DNA from: Akkermansiaceae bacterium
GTDB taxonomy: Bacteria > Verrucomicrobiota > Verrucomicrobiia > Verrucomicrobiales > Akkermansiaceae
DNA length: 64,000 nucleotides
Assembly: GCA_903827375.1 (NCBI GenBank)
Contig: CAIKHZ010000030.1
Span: 1 to 64,000 of the forward strand
Direction: 5' to 3'
Shown here in pieces: positions 3,320 through 37,811 of the stretch. The notes below the pieces were generated by a model. It saw only the letters and a program-made list of their open reading frames with translations, searched no databases and was not told the DNA's origin. A program made the position numbers and the translations under genes. How positions within the stretch are numbered: the first letter of the stretch is position 1; each line of letters opens with the position of its first letter.

Positions 3320-6300
3320 ATGCCTGCACGCGTCCATCTGAGCCGCATCCTCGCCATCAACTGGTATGGCTACCGCCGCTTCATCGATGTTTCCGGGCTC
3401 ACGCTCATCACCGGTGCCAACGGCTCCGGCAAAAGCGTTCTGTTAGACCTGATCCAGTTTGTATTGTTAGGCGAAGCACTCAGCCGTTTCAACAAGGCCG
3501 CTGCGGGGGCTGGGAGCGGCCGTTCGCTGCGCGGTTACTGCCTGTGCGACACGAACACCCAGGGCAACGACGGTCAGGAGCGATACCTGCGCCCATCCGG
3601 GGTGACCCTCGCCGGCTTGGAATTCGTCTGGCCGGCGGCACCCGGCGAGACCTCTCCACGCCGCGAAACCTGGGGGGCACGCATCGAGTTTGAAGGGCCC
3701 AGCGCCCGGCCTCGCACCCTGTGGTTCACCGTCCCCTGCCGCCTTGAACGCGAGGATTTTCTCGGCCGCGAACTCGACGCCGACGCGGTGGCCTTCATGG
3801 CCGAAGACGAATTCCGCGTCCATGTGAAGCGCGATCTGGGCGGCGAAGTGTTCGACCGCCAAGCGTCCTATCTGGATGAAATGGGCTCCCGCAGCCACCT
3901 CGGCTTCGACCGCGTCCAGATGAATAAAACCCTCCCTAACTCGATGGCCTTCCAGCCCGTCGAGTCATTCGAGCGCTTCATCCGCGACTACCTGTTGGAA
4001 CCGGGCCTGCCCGACGTCAAGGCCGTGCGTGCCAGCGTCGATGCCCACCGCCGCGCTCAGGACCGCCTGGAAAAACTCCACGACCAACACGCACGCCTCA
4101 CCCGAATCCGCGCCCGCCACGCCGATTTTCAAAACGCCCGGCGCGATGCCCGCCTCCACGCCCACCTCCATGAGGCGCTGGCCCATGCCCAGAAAGATGA
4201 GACTCTAACAACCCGAACCGGCGAGCTCGCCACCCTCCGCATGCACAATGCCGAGCAGAGTGCCGATTACGAGGCCGCCCTGATCGAGCGCAACGAACTC
4301 GATTCGCAGCTCGTCAAAATCCGTTTGGTGGCGGGTTCCGACCTGCAAATCACCCGGCTGGCGGAAACCCGCAGTCGCCGCGACGAGGTGGCCCGCGACC
4401 TCGACGCCTTGCGGGAAACCGAGAAAAGCGCCCGCCAATTTCTCCACGACCGGATCCAGTATTGGAAGCAATGGCTGCGGATGGCCCGCGACTTCGGCCT
4501 CGTCGAGCCAGAAACCGCCACCGCCTGGCTCAAGCAAATGCAAGGGACCGACGAGATGGCGGCGCTGGATGCAGCCGAGCGCATGCCCCGGATCTATCAA
4601 TCGCTTGTGAATGATGCCCGCGACCAGCTCCGGCCCGTCGAGGACCGCGTCAAGGACCTGGAAACCCGCGAGGCGCGGCTCCGCCGCGATCTGGACGACC
4701 TCGACCACAAGGGCAGCGCCGCCCCCTCGCCCTTGCTGGATGCGCTCAAGTCCCGCGGCCACAAGGCGGACGCTCTTGGCCGGGTGATCGAAGTGAAGGC
4801 CTCCGCCGAACCCTGGTGGCCATTGCTGGAATCCTTGCTAGGTAACCGCCGTGGCGCCGTGCTGGCCGCCGATTTCAAATCCGCCTGGGAACAGGCACGC
4901 CGTCTCGGTCATCTCGATGAACCGCTCGTCCAACCTAACGAACTTGGCAGCGCCCCTGGCAAACCAAAACCGGGCAGCGTCGCCGCGTTGTTTGAGACCC
5001 GCCACGAACTGGCCAATGCCTATCTGCACCATCTGTTTGGCGATGTGATATCAGTCGAGACAGCGGCGCAACTTGAACTCCATCCGCGGGCGTTTTCCAA
5101 AGATGGCTGGCTCAAAGACCCGCCACACAGACAGCATTTCCAGCCTGCCAAGGAATTCACCATCGGCGAGGAAGGGCTGCGCCGCTTGCGCAGCTTGCGC
5201 CAGGACGAACTCGCCGAAGTCAAAGACGAACTCACCCGCCTCCACCGCACCCGCGACGATTGGCGCTCATTTTTGCATCGCGGCGACCAATGGACGCTCG
5301 ACAAAGCGGACCCTCCTGCCGGATCGTCAAAGTTGCGGGATTTGCCGCGACTGCGCAAGGAACTCGCCCAACTCGACGAAACCATCCGCCTGCTCGCCAC
5401 CCCCGAACGTGAGGCCACCGTCGAAAAACTCCGCGTCTTGGAGAAAACCTTCCAGGGCGTCATCGAACGCATCGGCCGCCTCGCTAACAGCATCGAGAAA
5501 TTCGCCCACCAAGAGCGGCTCCTCTGCGAGGCCATCTCAATGTTAGAAGAGGATGCCGCCGCGGCCCTCATCACCCGCCAACGCAGCCGCGAAGCCCTGG
5601 AAGGCGTTCGGGACGCCGAGATCGATGCGCTCATCGCTGCCGCTAACAAACAATTTCCGCGCTGGCAGCAGCGGCTCGAAGCCGCCGCCGAAGTCGCCAG
5701 ACTCCGTGCCTACGAGTCCGACAAAGCCCGCCACGACCGCAACCTCGAACGTCACGCGCTGGCCGAGACTCACCCGGAGACCGCCGAGGCGTTTGATCCG
5801 GAGGATGATGATAACTCAGGATACGACGCCCGCTGCAACGAGCTCGAAACCCACGAACTGGAAAAATACACCCTCGCCGCCGAAGACGCCCGCAAGGAAT
5901 GGGAAGACCGGTTGCAGCACCAGGTGCTCGACGTCCTCAAGGAGAAACTCGATGAGGCAGGACGCACAAAACGCGAACTCAACCGCGCCATGGACCACGA
6001 TATCGGCGGCTGGCGCTATCAATTATCCATGCACGCCGACCGCAGCCACAGCGCGATTTGGACGTTGGTGGACAAGGGCCTCAACCCCGGTCTCGAATTG
6101 TTTGCCTCCGCCGCCAAGGAGGAAATTGCCAAGGCCAAAGACGCCCTGATGGCCGCCATCGAAAATGCCGAGGACCCCCGCCAACAGCGGGCTCTGGACT
6201 ACCGCTACTATCACCACTGGGACATCCAGGCCACCCCCACCGGCCAAGGCGAGGGCGCTGCCATCTCGCTCAACCGCAACGCCAAAAAACAAAGCGGCGG

Positions 6301-6649
6301 TGAAAATCAGGCCCCATTTTTCGTCGCCATGCTCGCCGCCTTTCAACGCGTCTATGACCTCGGCCCGCGCGAAACCCGAAAAAACCTCGGCATCGTCATC
6401 ATGGATGAGGCGTTCTCCAAACTCTCCGGCGACCGCATCGACGCTTGCCTCGACCTCGCCCGCAACTTCGGCCTCCAACTCGTCATGGCCTTCCCCGAAG
6501 ACCGCCTGCCCACCATGATCCAACACGCCGAAACCGTCGTCCAATGCCGCGTCGATCGCTCGTACGACGATAAATCCGGCCAAATCACCAATATCGAAAA
6601 TTGGGTCGTCAAGGTGGATCGCGACAAGCTGTTAGAAGCGCTAACGTGA
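3320..6649 (+). CDS. jetC: Wadjet defence protein JetC (SMC/MukB-like ATPase)
   Basis: The product has 1109 residues from the ATG at 3320, chosen because it lies one base after the jetB stop and places the ATPase fold at the N-terminus; an earlier in-frame ATG at 3200 would overlap jetB by 119 bases. Residues 32-39 are a Walker A loop (GANGSGKS). Near the C-terminus are an ABC signature (SGGENQAPFF) and a Walker B segment (GIVIMDEAFSKL), with long coiled coils in between. This is the SMC-family motor of Wadjet, which extrudes DNA loops to sense small circles. Ten bases separate it from jetD, so jetABCD should be one transcript. Confidence 0.9.
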   Translation: MPARVHLSRILAINWYGYRRFIDVSGLTLITGANGSGKSVLLDLIQFVLLGEALSRFNKAAAGAGSGRSLRGYCLCDTNTQGNDGQERYLRPSGVTLAGLEFVWPAAPGETSPRRETWGARIEFEGPSARPRTLWFTVPCRLEREDFLGRELDADAVAFMAEDEFRVHVKRDLGGEVFDRQASYLDEMGSRSHLGFDRVQMNKTLPNSMAFQPVESFERFIRDYLLEPGLPDVKAVRASVDAHRRAQDRLEKLHDQHARLTRIRARHADFQNARRDARLHAHLHEALAHAQKDETLTTRTGELATLRMHNAEQSADYEAALIERNELDSQLVKIRLVAGSDLQITRLAETRSRRDEVARDLDALRETEKSARQFLHDRIQYWKQWLRMARDFGLVEPETATAWLKQMQGTDEMAALDAAERMPRIYQSLVNDARDQLRPVEDRVKDLETREARLRRDLDDLDHKGSAAPSPLLDALKSRGHKADALGRVIEVKASAEPWWPLLESLLGNRRGAVLAADFKSAWEQARRLGHLDEPLVQPNELGSAPGKPKPGSVAALFETRHELANAYLHHLFGDVISVETAAQLELHPRAFSKDGWLKDPPHRQHFQPAKEFTIGEEGLRRLRSLRQDELAEVKDELTRLHRTRDDWRSFLHRGDQWTLDKADPPAGSSKLRDLPRLRKELAQLDETIRLLATPEREATVEKLRVLEKTFQGVIERIGRLANSIEKFAHQERLLCEAISMLEEDAAAALITRQRSREALEGVRDAEIDALIAAANKQFPRWQQRLEAAAEVARLRAYESDKARHDRNLERHALAETHPETAEAFDPEDDDNSGYDARCNELETHELEKYTLAAEDARKEWEDRLQHQVLDVLKEKLDEAGRTKRELNRAMDHDIGGWRYQLSMHADRSHSAIWTLVDKGLNPGLELFASAAKEEIAKAKDALMAAIENAEDPRQQRALDYRYYHHWDIQATPTGQGEGAAISLNRNAKKQSGGENQAPFFVAMLAAFQRVYDLGPRETRKNLGIVIMDEAFSKLSGDRIDACLDLARNFGLQLVMAFPEDRLPTMIQHAETVVQCRVDRSYDDKSGQITNIENWVVKVDRDKLLEALT

Positions 6650-6659
6650 CCGACTCGCC

Positions 6660-7913
6660 ATGAACCCGCCTGTCTGGCTCTCGCAACTCCACCGCCAATG
6701 GCAGGCCCGCCGCGGCAAGCGCGTGGAGCAGTCCTGCCGGGAGTTTTCGCAACCTTGGCTGGGCTTGCTGGAAAGCGTCGGCATCACCAGCGCCGAAGAT
6801 CAAGGAAACGCCACCCGTGAGGTTGAGGCACTCGCCAAAGCCGGGCACTTGGGCCTCAAACGCCATCGCTACCGGACCTATCTGATTGAGCGGGTCACTC
6901 TGCCGCTCACCCAGGAAGCTTGGCTGCGCGGGCTTTTTGGCGCAAGCGCCAGCCACGACCTCCTGGCCGCCTCGCTGGATATCATTGCCGGATTTTCCCA
7001 GACCGGCCACCCTCGCTTTCCTAACGAATGGACCAACCTCTGCGCCACGCTGCGGCTCACATTTTCACAGGGCCGCTCGTTGCGCCCATTCACTTGGACC
7101 CATCCCGCCACGTTGAAAAAATTGCTAGATACGATTCACGCTCTCAGTTCGCGGGACTGGCCGCCTAGCACCTTGATCCGTCAAGCGAGTGTGGCCATCG
7201 GGCTGGATTCCAAAGGACTGGAGCGCCACCAGCGGACGTTTGAATCCGGCCTGGCGCGGCTTTTTGGGACGGCCACCCCACTGAAGTCCCTTGGCTTTGT
7301 CGGCGGGGAGTCCCACGTTGAGTTGCACGGACCGGTGTGCCTGCACTTTGCCGATGGCACCAAGCATCACTTCGACGGGCTGAGCCAAGTGCTCATTTCC
7401 GCCGCCGATCTCGCACGCTGCTCTGCCGTCTCCACCCGCGCCGGGCACCTGCTCACCATCGAAAACCGCAAGACCACATTCCGCCAATTCGCCGCTGCCA
7501 ATGGCGACCACAGCACACTCCTGGCGGCCACCTCGTTTCCCACCCAAGCCTTCCGAGATTTGTTAGAAAAGCTCCCCGCCAGCCTGCCCCATTATCACTT
7601 CGGAGATACCGACCCCGCAGGTTGGCATATCTTGCTCAAACTCCGCGAAGCCACCCCGCGCCTCGTTCTCCCATTCCAAATGGCCTGGCGCCCCGCTGCC
7701 ACACCCAGCCCCCTCACACCCTACGACCGGCAATTGCTGCCGAAACTTCTCGCCGCACCGCTGCTGGCCGACGTCCATCGTGAAATCCAGACCATCGCCG
7801 ATCGCCTTGACCGCGGCGATTTCGAACAGGAAACCCTCGGTTTGCCATGTTTTGTTAGACCCCAACAAACGACCCCATTATTGACGGTGGTGCAGGCAAG
7901 TTGGAGTCCCTAA
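6660..7913 (+). CDS. jetD: Wadjet defence protein JetD (Toprim nuclease)
   Basis: The product has 417 residues. The C-terminal half carries a Toprim-type active site: Glu268 in LLTIENRK and the Asp316-x-Asp318 pair in HFGDTDPAGWH, both in the arrangement seen in DUF2220/topoisomerase VI-like JetD proteins. The N-terminal half is the winged-helix/arm region that contacts DNA. JetD is the endonuclease that cleaves circular DNA once JetABC has extruded it. All visible catalytic acidic residues are present, so the system is probably functional. It is the last gene of the operon, and no terminator was recognised in the 168 bases before coaD. Confidence 0.85.
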   Translation: MNPPVWLSQLHRQWQARRGKRVEQSCREFSQPWLGLLESVGITSAEDQGNATREVEALAKAGHLGLKRHRYRTYLIERVTLPLTQEAWLRGLFGASASHDLLAASLDIIAGFSQTGHPRFPNEWTNLCATLRLTFSQGRSLRPFTWTHPATLKKLLDTIHALSSRDWPPSTLIRQASVAIGLDSKGLERHQRTFESGLARLFGTATPLKSLGFVGGESHVELHGPVCLHFADGTKHHFDGLSQVLISAADLARCSAVSTRAGHLLTIENRKTTFRQFAAANGDHSTLLAATSFPTQAFRDLLEKLPASLPHYHFGDTDPAGWHILLKLREATPRLVLPFQMAWRPAATPSPLTPYDRQLLPKLLAAPLLADVHREIQTIADRLDRGDFEQETLGLPCFVRPQQTTPLLTVVQASWSP

Positions 7914-34551: not shown

Positions 34552-35790
34552 ATGTTCCGCCGACCATTTTCCCGATTCCTGCGCTGGTTCGCCGCGCTGA
34601 CGGGCGGCTATTTGGTTATCACAGCGCTGCTTACCACCACCGTGGACCCATGGCGCATCAACGCCGCTCCGTGGGCGATGGCCACCCTTGATTCGTCCCG
34701 CGAAATCAGCCAAACCACCCGCGTCGGCAAGGCCGCTCTGGCCAACCGAGGCATCTGGCAGGCCGTGTTCCTCGGCTCGTCGCGGGTAGAAATCGGCCTC
34801 GATCCGACGCATCCCGCGCTGCCGCCACAGCGCACCGTGAATCTCGGCTTGTCGGGCGCTAATCTGCTAGAATGTCTGGCGGTCGGCAACTACACGCTTG
34901 ACCGCAACCCGCAGCTCAAGACGATGATTCTGGGCATTGATCCGGGAGATCTGCACAACACGGCCGACAGCCGCAACGGCAATCATTTCTACCAAACCCC
35001 GTTTGCCGACAACAACCGCTCCCTCGAGCGAAGCATCAACCAAATCATCGGCTGGCGTGCATTCAGCGACTCGATCACCACCCTGAAGCGCCACCTCAGC
35101 GGGCCGGCACCCAATTGCAGCGCGTTCGGGCAAATGCTTCAGCCGCCTGACCACGGCAACCTGCGTGCCTTCATCGAGGCCGCATTCATGGAAAGCAGCG
35201 CCGACCAGTGGGCCCTGCGGCCACAGGTATTGTGCCAACAGAAGGCCGGGCAGCTCAGCGCGTTCATCGAGCGGGTGCGCCGGGCCAACATCCAATTGTT
35301 CATCATTCTGCCGCCGCAACACGCGTTGAAGCAAATCCATCCCACGATGGACCGGCCGGATGTCATGGGTTGGGAAGCCGACCTGCTCGCGTTGATCGAC
35401 ATCTGCCGGGCGGCCAATGCAACCCCCACCTCTGCGCCGCCCGTCCAACTTTGGAGTTTTCTCACCTTCAACCCGCACACATCCACCCCGATGCCAATCC
35501 CCGGCGCACCATCCCAAGCCATGCCGGATTGGTGCGACCTCGGCCACGCCGGCAATATCCTCGGCCGCCAAGTATTGAACACCCTGCTGGCCGGCCGGCC
35601 CGGTGCCTCCGCCGTCCCCTGCCCGGTCGGCATCAACCTGCTCGACGGCGAGTGGCTGACCATCCGCAACGCATGGATCGAGGATCACTGCAATTTTTGT
35701 GTTAGCCACACGTCAGATGTGGCATGGTGGCGCGGGTTGATGGCCCGTGCTGCCGCCAAATCCCAAGCCCCCGCACATCCACCCGGTTGA
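34552..35790 (+). CDS. Membrane-anchored SGNH-like partner of the MBOAT acyltransferase
   Basis: The product has 412 residues. A single membrane segment spans about residues 13-30, and the rest is predicted outside. Block FLGSSRVEIGL (residues 73-83) resembles the first SGNH/GDSL block, and FIILPPQH with a later WCDLGHAGN segment may supply further family blocks. Such proteins commonly follow MBOAT genes and complete polysaccharide acylation. The last 58 codons are repeated as a free-standing copy at 36552-36732, beyond a toxin-antitoxin pair. The copy, not this gene, retains a stop codon overlapping the next glycan gene, suggesting that this 3' end was replaced when the cassette arrived. Confidence 0.65.
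   Translation: MFRRPFSRFLRWFAALTGGYLVITALLTTTVDPWRINAAPWAMATLDSSREISQTTRVGKAALANRGIWQAVFLGSSRVEIGLDPTHPALPPQRTVNLGLSGANLLECLAVGNYTLDRNPQLKTMILGIDPGDLHNTADSRNGNHFYQTPFADNNRSLERSINQIIGWRAFSDSITTLKRHLSGPAPNCSAFGQMLQPPDHGNLRAFIEAAFMESSADQWALRPQVLCQQKAGQLSAFIERVRRANIQLFIILPPQHALKQIHPTMDRPDVMGWEADLLALIDICRAANATPTSAPPVQLWSFLTFNPHTSTPMPIPGAPSQAMPDWCDLGHAGNILGRQVLNTLLAGRPGASAVPCPVGINLLDGEWLTIRNAWIEDHCNFCVSHTSDVAWWRGLMARAAAKSQAPAHPPG
35616..35790 (+). repeat. Direct repeat A: 3' end of the SGNH-like gene, left flank of the TA cassette
   Basis: Bases 35616-35790 match 36552-36732 at about nine positions in ten over the first 145 bases by eye, in the same orientation, beginning at CCCCTGCCCGGTCGG. Copy A is in frame with the SGNH-like gene and ends it. 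Confidence 0.85.
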
Positions 35791-35917
35791 TTTCTACTGG
35801 GCACCTCACCTTGATTCCTCTGTCCCCCAATACGGATGGCGGAACTGATGGCATCTTTCGATTTCATTTTTGATATCAATCGTTGACATCAAAATCCGGC
35901 TGCGTAAGCTGCCACCG

Positions 35918-36163
35918 ATGAACGCAGCTAAAACACTCACGCTTCGCTTGCCGCTTGGCGTCTATGAACGAGCCAATCGTCTAGCCACAAGTCGTGGCCA
36001 GAGCCTCAACCGGCTGTTTCAAGACGGTCTCCAATTGCTTGATTCGCAAGACCGGGAACGCTGCCTGTTCGATGACTTCAGTGCCATCGCAGAGGCACTT
36101 GGCGATGATTCCTCCATTGATTTTGCCTTTGCTGCCCAAACCGAAACCCTCGGCGAATCATGA
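35918..36163 (+). CDS. Putative ribbon-helix-helix antitoxin
   Basis: The product has 81 residues from the ATG at 35918. The N-terminal 40 residues look like a ribbon-helix-helix DNA-binding domain (TLTLRLPLGVYERANRLATS). The C-terminus is acidic (LFDDFSAIAEALGDDSSIDF), as expected of an antitoxin toxin-binding tail. Its stop overlaps the downstream toxin ATG by four bases (ATGA), typical of coupled toxin-antitoxin pairs. It should bind and neutralise the MazF-like toxin and repress its own promoter. The pair lies between two copies of a glycan gene's 3' end. Confidence 0.75.
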   Translation: MNAAKTLTLRLPLGVYERANRLATSRGQSLNRLFQDGLQLLDSQDRERCLFDDFSAIAEALGDDSSIDFAFAAQTETLGES

Positions 36164-36525
36164 AACCGCGCGTCATCCGGCGCGGTCAAATCTGGCTGGT
36201 GGACTGGTCAGCGGGCCGTGGTTCCGAGCAACTCGGCAAGCGGCCCGCTCTCGTCATCCAAACCGATGCCGCAAACTCCAACCCCCACTACCCTAACACA
36301 ATCGTCATCACTCTCAGCACCAAGGGATTGCCCGTCGCCACCCACATCCCTGTCGAACCAGACGCCAGCAATGGCCTGCGTGAGAAAAACTGGGTGAAAT
36401 GCGAACAAGTTCTCACCATCTCAAAGCAACGTCTCGACCAGCAATGGGGCCATCTTTCAGCGGCCACCATGTCCAAAGTCGAATCCGCTGTCAAAACCGC
36501 CCTCGGCATCTGGAACGATGGGTGA
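36160..36525 (+). CDS. MazF/PemK-family mRNA interferase toxin
   Basis: The product has 121 residues. It begins with the family's RRGQIWLVDW strand. It also contains KRPALVIQTDAAN, ITLSTKG and the conserved VKCEQVLTISKQRL block. MazF/PemK toxins are ribosome-independent endoribonucleases cutting mRNA at short sequences; the cut site cannot be predicted here. The ATG overlaps the antitoxin stop codon. No transposase or recombinase is encoded within the cassette. Confidence 0.88.
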   Translation: MKPRVIRRGQIWLVDWSAGRGSEQLGKRPALVIQTDAANSNPHYPNTIVITLSTKGLPVATHIPVEPDASNGLREKNWVKCEQVLTISKQRLDQQWGHLSAATMSKVESAVKTALGIWNDG

Positions 36526-36551
36526 ACTGGCCATCGTGATCACTTTCCCGC

Positions 36552-36732
36552 CCCCTGCCCGGTCGGCGTCAACCTGCTCGACGGCGAGTGGCCGGCCATC
36601 CGCAACACCTGGATCCAGGCCCATTGCGATTTTTGTGTTAGCCACGCGTCAGATGTGGCAGGGTGGCGCGGGTTGATGGCCCGCGCTGCCGCCAAGGCCC
36701 ATACCCCGCTACCGACCCCAGCTGACCCCTGA
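36552..36732 (+). repeat. Direct repeat B: orphan 3' end of the SGNH-like gene, right flank of the TA cassette
   Basis: This copy still reads as an open C-terminal segment (VNLLDGEWPAIRNTWIQ, then CVSHASDVAGWRGLMARAAA), and its TGA at 36730-36732 shares a base with the ATG of the next gene. It has no start of its own, so it is a gene fragment. It differs from copy A at scattered, mostly silent or conservative positions and by a 6-base indel near the end. Confidence 0.85.
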
Positions 36733-37811
36733 TGGACACCCCGCTAACAAATTTAGTTCCACCAACCGGCGGCGGCAACCAGCCGAGGGTGGCGATTATT
36801 CAAAAAAGCGACGGGTTGCTCACCTGGTGCAAGGATCTGACGAGTGCCTTCAACGAGGCGGGTGCCATCACGTTGGCCGCCAATTGCCGCCCATCCACGC
36901 TGAGTGAGCGGTGGATTCGCCACACCCAAAACCAGCGCCTGCTGCTGAATCCGGCCACCTCCCGGCGGCTGGCAACCACCCTCGGCGCGTTCGCTCCCGA
37001 TCTGGTGGTTTTTCTCAACTTTCCGAGTTTACCGGAACAAGCCGCCGCACTCCTGCGCCAATCACTGGGGCCCGGCGTGCGGATGGTCGGCTGGCTCTGC
37101 GACAGCGTTGATGCCCTGCCGGCGGGCCATGATGCGTTGCTCGACGGCGTTTACTACTTTGATTCGGCCAGTCTGCCGACCTTGCGCGATCATTACCGGG
37201 GTTCGCCTGCGAAGGTGGAGTTTCTGCCGCTGGCAGCCAATCCGCTCCGCTACGCCTGCCGCCCCATCCAACTGGCCAACCGCCAACCCCGCTTGGTATT
37301 TGCCGGCAATTGCACGCCGTCGCGCCAACACTTCGCCGCCGAAATCCGCAAGCTCGGCCAACCCCTCGACCTCTACGGCCTCCACGCCGGCAATTGGCCC
37401 CAATTCTGGCGCAATCGCAAACTCTCATCCGCCGCTCTTGCCCGGGTCTATCAACAATACCTGGTCAACCTTAACCTGCTACAAACCGGCAACACCACCA
37501 ACGGCCTGAATTTGCGCGCCTTTGAAATCCCCTGCGCCGGCGGCCTCGCCACCTATCCAGCAGTACCCGACCTCGCCCGCTGCTTCACACCCAATGAGGA
37601 AGTTCTGGTGTTCCAATCCGCCGAAGACCTCGCCGGAATCCTTCGTTCACTCGTCCGTGAACCGGAGCGGGCTCTGGCCATCACCCTCGCCGGCCATCGC
37701 CGGGTGCTGCGCGAACACACGTTCTATCACCGCGCTTGCCGCTTGCTGCAGGATGCCCTCGGCCCGGCATTCCGCCCCGCCATCCCCCCTTACCTCGACG
37801 CCTCATCATGA
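36732..37811 (+). CDS. CgeB-like glycosyltransferase (family 1-type C-terminal domain)
   Basis: The product has 359 residues. The C-terminal half carries the Glyco_trans_1_2 pattern of CgeB-like proteins: GNTTNGLNLRAFEIPCAGGL followed by CFTPNEEVLVFQSAEDLAGI, with the conserved glutamate of the EIPCAG block contacting the nucleotide sugar in related GT-B enzymes. The N-terminal half is Rossmann-like (APDLVVFLNFPSLPEQ). It probably adds a sugar to the surface glycan built by this cluster. Its ATG overlaps the stop of the orphan 3' end fragment and its own stop overlaps the next gene (ATGA), so it is translated within a polycistronic message. Confidence 0.8.
   Translation: MDTPLTNLVPPTGGGNQPRVAIIQKSDGLLTWCKDLTSAFNEAGAITLAANCRPSTLSERWIRHTQNQRLLLNPATSRRLATTLGAFAPDLVVFLNFPSLPEQAAALLRQSLGPGVRMVGWLCDSVDALPAGHDALLDGVYYFDSASLPTLRDHYRGSPAKVEFLPLAANPLRYACRPIQLANRQPRLVFAGNCTPSRQHFAAEIRKLGQPLDLYGLHAGNWPQFWRNRKLSSAALARVYQQYLVNLNLLQTGNTTNGLNLRAFEIPCAGGLATYPAVPDLARCFTPNEEVLVFQSAEDLAGILRSLVREPERALAITLAGHRRVLREHTFYHRACRLLQDALGPAFRPAIPPYLDASS

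Follow-up and report, generated by a model that had tools for sequence, protein, structure and literature searches.

The window, which is the whole stretch of 64,000 nucleotides analysed here, contains a toxin-antitoxin (TA) pair lying between two direct repeats, copy A and copy B, of the 3' end of an SGNH-like protein gene (Table 1). The name of this gene is that of the initial annotation; in the Pfam scan its product matched no family. The next gene downstream encodes a CgeB-like glycosyltransferase, and in the related genome G047 this gene directly follows the SGNH-like gene. The initial annotation saw no integrase at the locus, and Pfam likewise revealed no integrase or transposase among the eight proteins scanned between 32.7 and 40.7 kb of the window.

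Table 1. Features of the TA locus, with positions counted in the window
Feature	Position	Strand	Remarks
SGNH-like protein gene, 412 aa	34552..35790	+	intact, ends in copy A; name from the initial annotation
Copy A	35612..35771	+	3' end of the intact SGNH-like gene; repeat search, self-BLAST
Spacer, SGNH-like stop to TA core	35791..35875	+	89.4% identical in G028
Antitoxin-like ORF, 81 aa	35918..36163	+	stop overlaps toxin start (36160)
MazF/PemK-family toxin, 121 aa	36160..36525	+	PF02452 PemK_toxin
Open frame containing copy B	36526..36732	+	in the mazF frame, directly after its TGA; ends over the next ATG
Copy B	36548..36707	+	orphan 3' end, decaying; repeat search
CgeB-like / Glyco_trans_1_2 glycosyltransferase gene	36732..37811	+	PF13524, 2.2e-25; native downstream neighbour

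A direct repeat of about 175-181 bp, with about 90% identity over the first 145 bases, had initially been described here. The repeat is real, but shorter: the repeat search aligned copies A and B over 160 nt with 89% identity, and self-BLAST of the window gave 88.75% (E-value 6e-54). Beyond position 35771 the similarity of the copies is at the level of shuffled sequences, 3194 of 5000 shuffles scoring as high, so that the supportable length of the repeat is about 160 bp. Copy A does complete the SGNH-like gene, as first proposed, and the stop codon of the copy B frame (TGA, 36730-36732) indeed overlaps the ATG of the CgeB-like gene. This frame runs on from the mazF stop for 68 codons without interruption. 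The view that it has no start holds for its first 43 codons, which contain neither ATG, GTG nor TTG, but GTG, TTG and ATG are found as codons 44, 50 and 51. A 68-aa open frame holding copy B was also found by protein search in the relative G028. Readthrough of the mazF TGA would yield a fusion protein with the copy B frame.

The toxin matches PF02452 with an E-value of 6.9e-28 and 97.5 bits (cut-off 23.1), and solved MazF/EndoA structures with an E-value of about 1e-13, in keeping with the MazF-type pair first noted between the repeats. The antitoxin-like ORF has no Pfam match at E 0.001 (query without the first methionine) and no NCBIfam match at E 1. With a toxin of the PemK/MazF family and a small upstream antitoxin gene overlapping it, the pair is a predicted MazEF/PemIK type II toxin-antitoxin system. 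Purifying selection acts on both genes: between the window and G028 the antitoxin shows eight synonymous and no amino acid changes over 183 nonsynonymous sites, and the dN/dS of mazF is 0.20. A promoter-like TTGACA was seen by eye at 35883, just 3' of the spacer.

The SGNH-like protein was searched against 99 genomes, its own included, and matched in 14 of them, with identities of 94% in G028, 75% in G047 and 59-53% in G025, G046 and G018. G028 carries copy A, the TA pair and copy B in the order of the window, which speaks against an assembly artefact of one genome. G047 has an empty site, where a single copy runs into the CgeB-like gene, the TA pair is absent and the stop of the SGNH-like gene lies 6 nt before the next ATG. 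Just such a site, with one copy joined to the CgeB-like gene, had been predicted from the window. Two copies without the TA pair, an arrangement initially linked to simple tandem duplication, were encountered in none of the 99 genomes searched with the SGNH-like protein. In the stretches compared from G025, G046 and G018 the SGNH-like gene has no CgeB-like neighbour, so that these genomes are uninformative for the window site and G047 is the sole informative relative. The site in G047 may be empty by loss, through recombination between the copies, instead of never having been filled.

Over 150 in-frame nucleotides, A and B differ at 16 positions in the window and 18 in G028, and at 17 and 21 positions when compared across the two genomes, whereas all four copies differ from that of G047, the single nucleotide-level outgroup for this comparison, at 37-44 of 150 positions (25-29%). 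These values point to A and B as sister copies of one local sequence. Nothing in the alignment suggests that copy A was imported from elsewhere; a foreign origin was considered and found unsupported, since the G047 copy is more distant from both A and B than these are from one another. In both genomes A can be told from B at sites 2, 112, 147 and 148. At sites 100 and 102, by contrast, the A and B copies of each genome agree, suggesting that there has been some exchange between them.

Copy B decays while copy A and the antitoxin stay conserved. Between the window and G028 copy B is 14% divergent and copy A 7.5%; a tryptophan kept in copy A and in G047, G025, G046 and G018 is lost from B, and in the alignments the tail of B is 1 nt shorter than those of A and G047, which shifts its frame. 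The changes in B between the two genomes are still skewed towards synonymous ones (9.5 over 35.5 synonymous sites, 11.5 over 114.5 nonsynonymous sites). Given the position of the stop in G047 and the base lost from B, the overlap of the B stop with the next ATG is probably a secondary by-product of that loss.

The TA core (35876-36509) recurs with 82% identity at an unrelated site in G057 (contig C54), the homology beginning at 35876, which indicates that the pair is mobile. The copy in G057 adjoins a gene read by eye as pyruvate kinase. More distant copies of the same family are present in G085 and, decayed, in G006. No flanking duplication was found around these three copies, one flank being only 613 bp long in G057 and 337 bp in G006. 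The idea that this family always lies within duplicated ends was therefore rejected for the flanks examined; for the window's TA family, duplication is not obligatory upon moving. A search for the same pair beside duplicated 3' ends of other genes had been proposed in the initial annotation; these three sites show none, but other TA pairs are bracketed by duplicated gene ends.

Seven independent events were found in which the end of a gene (38-298 bp) is duplicated around a MazF-, ParE- or PIN-type pair. This class was picked by eye: in each event a protein gene contributes its end as the repeat, and the 0.5-1 kb between the copies hold scarcely more than the TA pair. Three events involve 3' ends: 160 bp of the SGNH-like gene around the MazF/PemK-type pair of the window and G028, 168 bp (92%) of an hpt-like phosphoribosyltransferase gene around a PemK-type pair in G104, and 38 bp (92%) of a gene adjoining homoserine dehydrogenase around a ParE-type pair in G003. 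The other four involve 5' ends: 298 bp (82%) of a very long ORF around a ParE-type pair in G025, 117 bp (84%) of an hrpB-like gene around a MazF-type pair in G057 (contig C139), 77 bp (96%) of xseA around a PIN-type pair in G057 (contig C105), and 46 bp (89%) of a DNA-alkylation-repair-like gene around a PemK-type pair in G109. The phosphoribosyltransferase, xseA, homoserine dehydrogenase and alkylation-repair genes were named by Pfam, hrpB and hpt by eye.

At the G003 site the two genes are 13-130 bp apart in 23 of 29 relatives. The exceptions are G047 with 352 bp, G106 and G102 with about 1.1 kb of other sequence, and three of the 29 in which the upstream gene was unmatched. The TA pair of G003 was matched in none of the 29 relatives, and in the six that were aligned at this site a single end is joined to the homoserine dehydrogenase side. 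The sequence of about 1.1 kb in G106 (L349) and G102 (L350) lies upstream of homoserine dehydrogenase, at the junction where G003 has its TA pair. For the hpt-like event of G104, the six relatives compared match around hpt only and not beyond, so that this case is not clean. An hpt-like fragment also occurs about 680 bp from an intact hpt-like gene in G014 (contig C19, L377). At the hrpB-like event of G057 (L034), positions 991-2100 hold two hrpB-like 5' fragments, of which the first ends at the MazF-type pair and the second, a second truncation, at a gene that by eye resembles a type III restriction subunit. Another contig of G057 carries an hrpB-like frame of full length.

The survey of bracketing took in 207 TA loci with a PemK/MazF, ParE or PIN hit, almost all of them from the genus, and 202 of these remained once same-toxin repeats had been removed. 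The 207 comprise three sets of 30 loci, one of 48, 60 taken by place from further hits and nine of a separate set of 14 loci; of the other five in that set, three were already present and two were weak matches with stops. The choice of TA loci mostly followed the score, from the best downwards, and most of the genomes are drafts. A locus was counted as bracketed if self-BLAST (E up to 1e-5) placed the toxin between two copies with a gap of up to 1800. This was the case for 34 of 202 TA loci, or 32 of 200 after collapsing two pairs of loci that share an event or a bracket (L040/L045 and L263/L278). As a control, 300-bp intervals were tiled over 691,851 bases of the same genomes, and 17 of 573 were bracketed; one of the 17 is the G025 TA locus already counted, which leaves 16 of 572. 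None of 30 GNAT acetyltransferase loci and none of 49 hrpB/hpt loci was bracketed (L200, itself a TA site, was left out of the latter). By Fisher's test, the odds ratio for TA loci relative to tiled intervals is 7.0, with p 1.4e-10; collapsing the shared events lowers it to 6.6, with p 1e-9. These figures serve as a guide and not as proof, the intervals being unmatched for intergenic position and some contigs having been chosen for their TA hits. The bracketing pattern is apparently recurrent in the genus.

Many of the bracketing repeats are intergenic and often palindromic, as judged by an inspection excluding L184 and L249, and on this ground we rejected the view that gene-end duplication accounts for every bracketed TA locus. 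At L254, L097, L095, L180, L189, L190, L317 and others the TA pair lies between intergenic, partly palindromic repeats that resemble interspersed elements. All 17 bracketed control rows were viewed as well. Six fall inside one protein (L117, L120 twice, L129, L132 twice) and seven in two neighbouring ORFs (L114, L131 twice, L133, L138 twice, L120 at 2501); several of the latter are plainly paralogous, while the ORFs of L120 at 2501 are not obviously related. In L102 the match is 68%, with one copy in no convincing ORF. Two rows of L130 repeat what by eye is the tip of an Rhs-like gene, one copy lying outside the listed ORFs; of the control rows they come closest to a partial gene duplication without a TA pair, and they indicate that such duplications are not confined to TA loci. 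The Rhs-like tips of L130 (G025, contig C33) are at 3627-3700, 5493-5569, 5147-5196 and 6636-6685, separated by small ORFs.

Insertion with long target duplication is probably the best reading of the window locus. The flanking target repeats are on the scale of 100 bp and an empty site is present in a relative, namely in G047 for the window and in the 23 of 29 relatives with closely spaced genes for G003. A DNA fragment of about 0.78 kb carrying the MazEF-type pair would have entered the SGNH-like gene at its 3' end in the ancestor shared by the window genome and G028, with about 160 bp of target duplicated, one copy on each side. Because the duplication would span the gene end, an intact gene with copy A would remain, and the orphan copy B, left at the old downstream junction, would be free to drift. 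The empty site of G047 supports this much of the initial interpretation, which had a TA insertion in the 3' end of the gene with the restored gene upstream and the old end downstream. Joining may have been carried out by host repair without a dedicated recombinase, through fill-in of staggered nicks or breaks or through template switching, and we infer gain rather than loss as the direction of change at this site.

The initial annotation had gone further and suggested that an integrative cassette brought the TA pair together with a diverged replacement 3' end, restoring the gene in the manner of elements that target tRNA genes. Such a cassette would leave the identical end product, and the difference of about 11% between A and B fits a diverged replacement end. 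It is nevertheless an unlikely explanation, as A and B are sisters relative to G047, no recombinase is among the eight proteins scanned, where a site-specific integrative element should have one, and the gene ends that bracket other TA pairs are different ones, both 5' and 3'; the part of the proposal concerning a foreign end thus found no support. That unrelated gene ends of both kinds are duplicated around unrelated TA families speaks for target-duplicating insertion over one site-specific element.

Tandem duplications are common in bacteria, and the gene end could have been duplicated in tandem before a TA pair was inserted, or the pair could have been captured as junction filler during one repair. 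The filler version needs one step, ends in an equal structure and can be seen as the favoured model put in concrete terms. We regard this explanation as rather unlikely: a genome with two copies and no TA pair is absent among the 99 searched with the protein, and recurrence with TA pairs at seven sites makes two independent steps improbable. Very unlikely, in our view, is Campbell-type homologous integration of a circle with the TA pair and the gene end that had been excised from this site in a different strain. Such a circle would form if A and B recombined, and the sites common to A and B within each genome suggest exchange; the model would explain spread between strains at a given site but not the first event, and it leaves the 38-bp case of G003, with its TA pair in none of 29 relatives, unexplained.

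To return to target-duplicating insertion, recombination between A and B would delete the cassette and leave toxin without antitoxin, so that post-segregational killing may preserve carriers of the duplication and lead to over-representation of TA pairs between such repeats. Extended to the genus, this gives a tentative picture, which we hold to be possible but somewhat short of an even chance: TA pairs of unrelated families would move as bare units of 0.5-1 kb with no recombinase involved, each repair-type insertion duplicating 38-298 bp of target, and addiction would keep the unstable direct repeats in the population.

Several known systems resemble this arrangement. In the chromosomal superintegrons of Vibrio, TA pairs lie between repeats and are presumed to prevent loss of DNA; integron cassettes have attC sites at their ends and depend on an integrase for their movement. 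Here, in contrast, a piece of a host gene forms the bracket, and the eight proteins scanned include no integrase. Elements that target the 3' ends of tRNA genes also duplicate the gene end and restore the gene, whereas here the duplicated ends, some of them 5' ends, come from unrelated protein genes, again with no integrase in the scanned set. Insertion with long target duplication was reportedly described for restriction-modification gene complexes by Nobusato et al. in 2000 and Furuta et al. in 2010, and is reviewed in PMC3874152. Restriction-modification units are inserted with target duplications of about 100 bp and are unlinked to any known mobile element (PMC3874152, PMC3031569). A small addictive unit and target duplications of the order of 100 bp are common to both cases; the payload here is a type II TA pair, from three toxin families, and the host is Akkermansiaceae. 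For restriction-modification systems within operons, excerpts of a further paper propose that maintenance of the operon is imposed via post-segregational killing (PMC4615327). Addictive genes within or beside host genes, with killing that protects the neighbourhood, are shared with the present loci according to these excerpts, whereas the payload there is the PabI family and the excerpts contain no long target duplication (PMC4615327).

Long target duplication for TA pairs is not described in the titles and abstract openings of the literature searched. On the favoured reading, the window locus is a TA version of the known insertion mode, which would thereby be extended from restriction-modification genes to TA pairs. 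It has long been asked how solitary chromosomal TA pairs pass from site to site and from genome to genome in the absence of visible mobile elements. Pairs of empty and filled sites, the latter with long duplications of the target, offer a concrete, testable route. They also provide a case in which addiction may protect a duplication against deletion.

Two further observations were made during the survey. PIN-domain genes are widespread, with at least one in 72 of 73 genomes of the genus and up to 41 matches in one genome. In G000 (contig C337, L118) an 86-bp direct repeat with 91% identity (142-227 and 1724-1809) brackets another ORF, and one of its copies lies inside an ORF that by eye resembles a type I restriction specificity gene.
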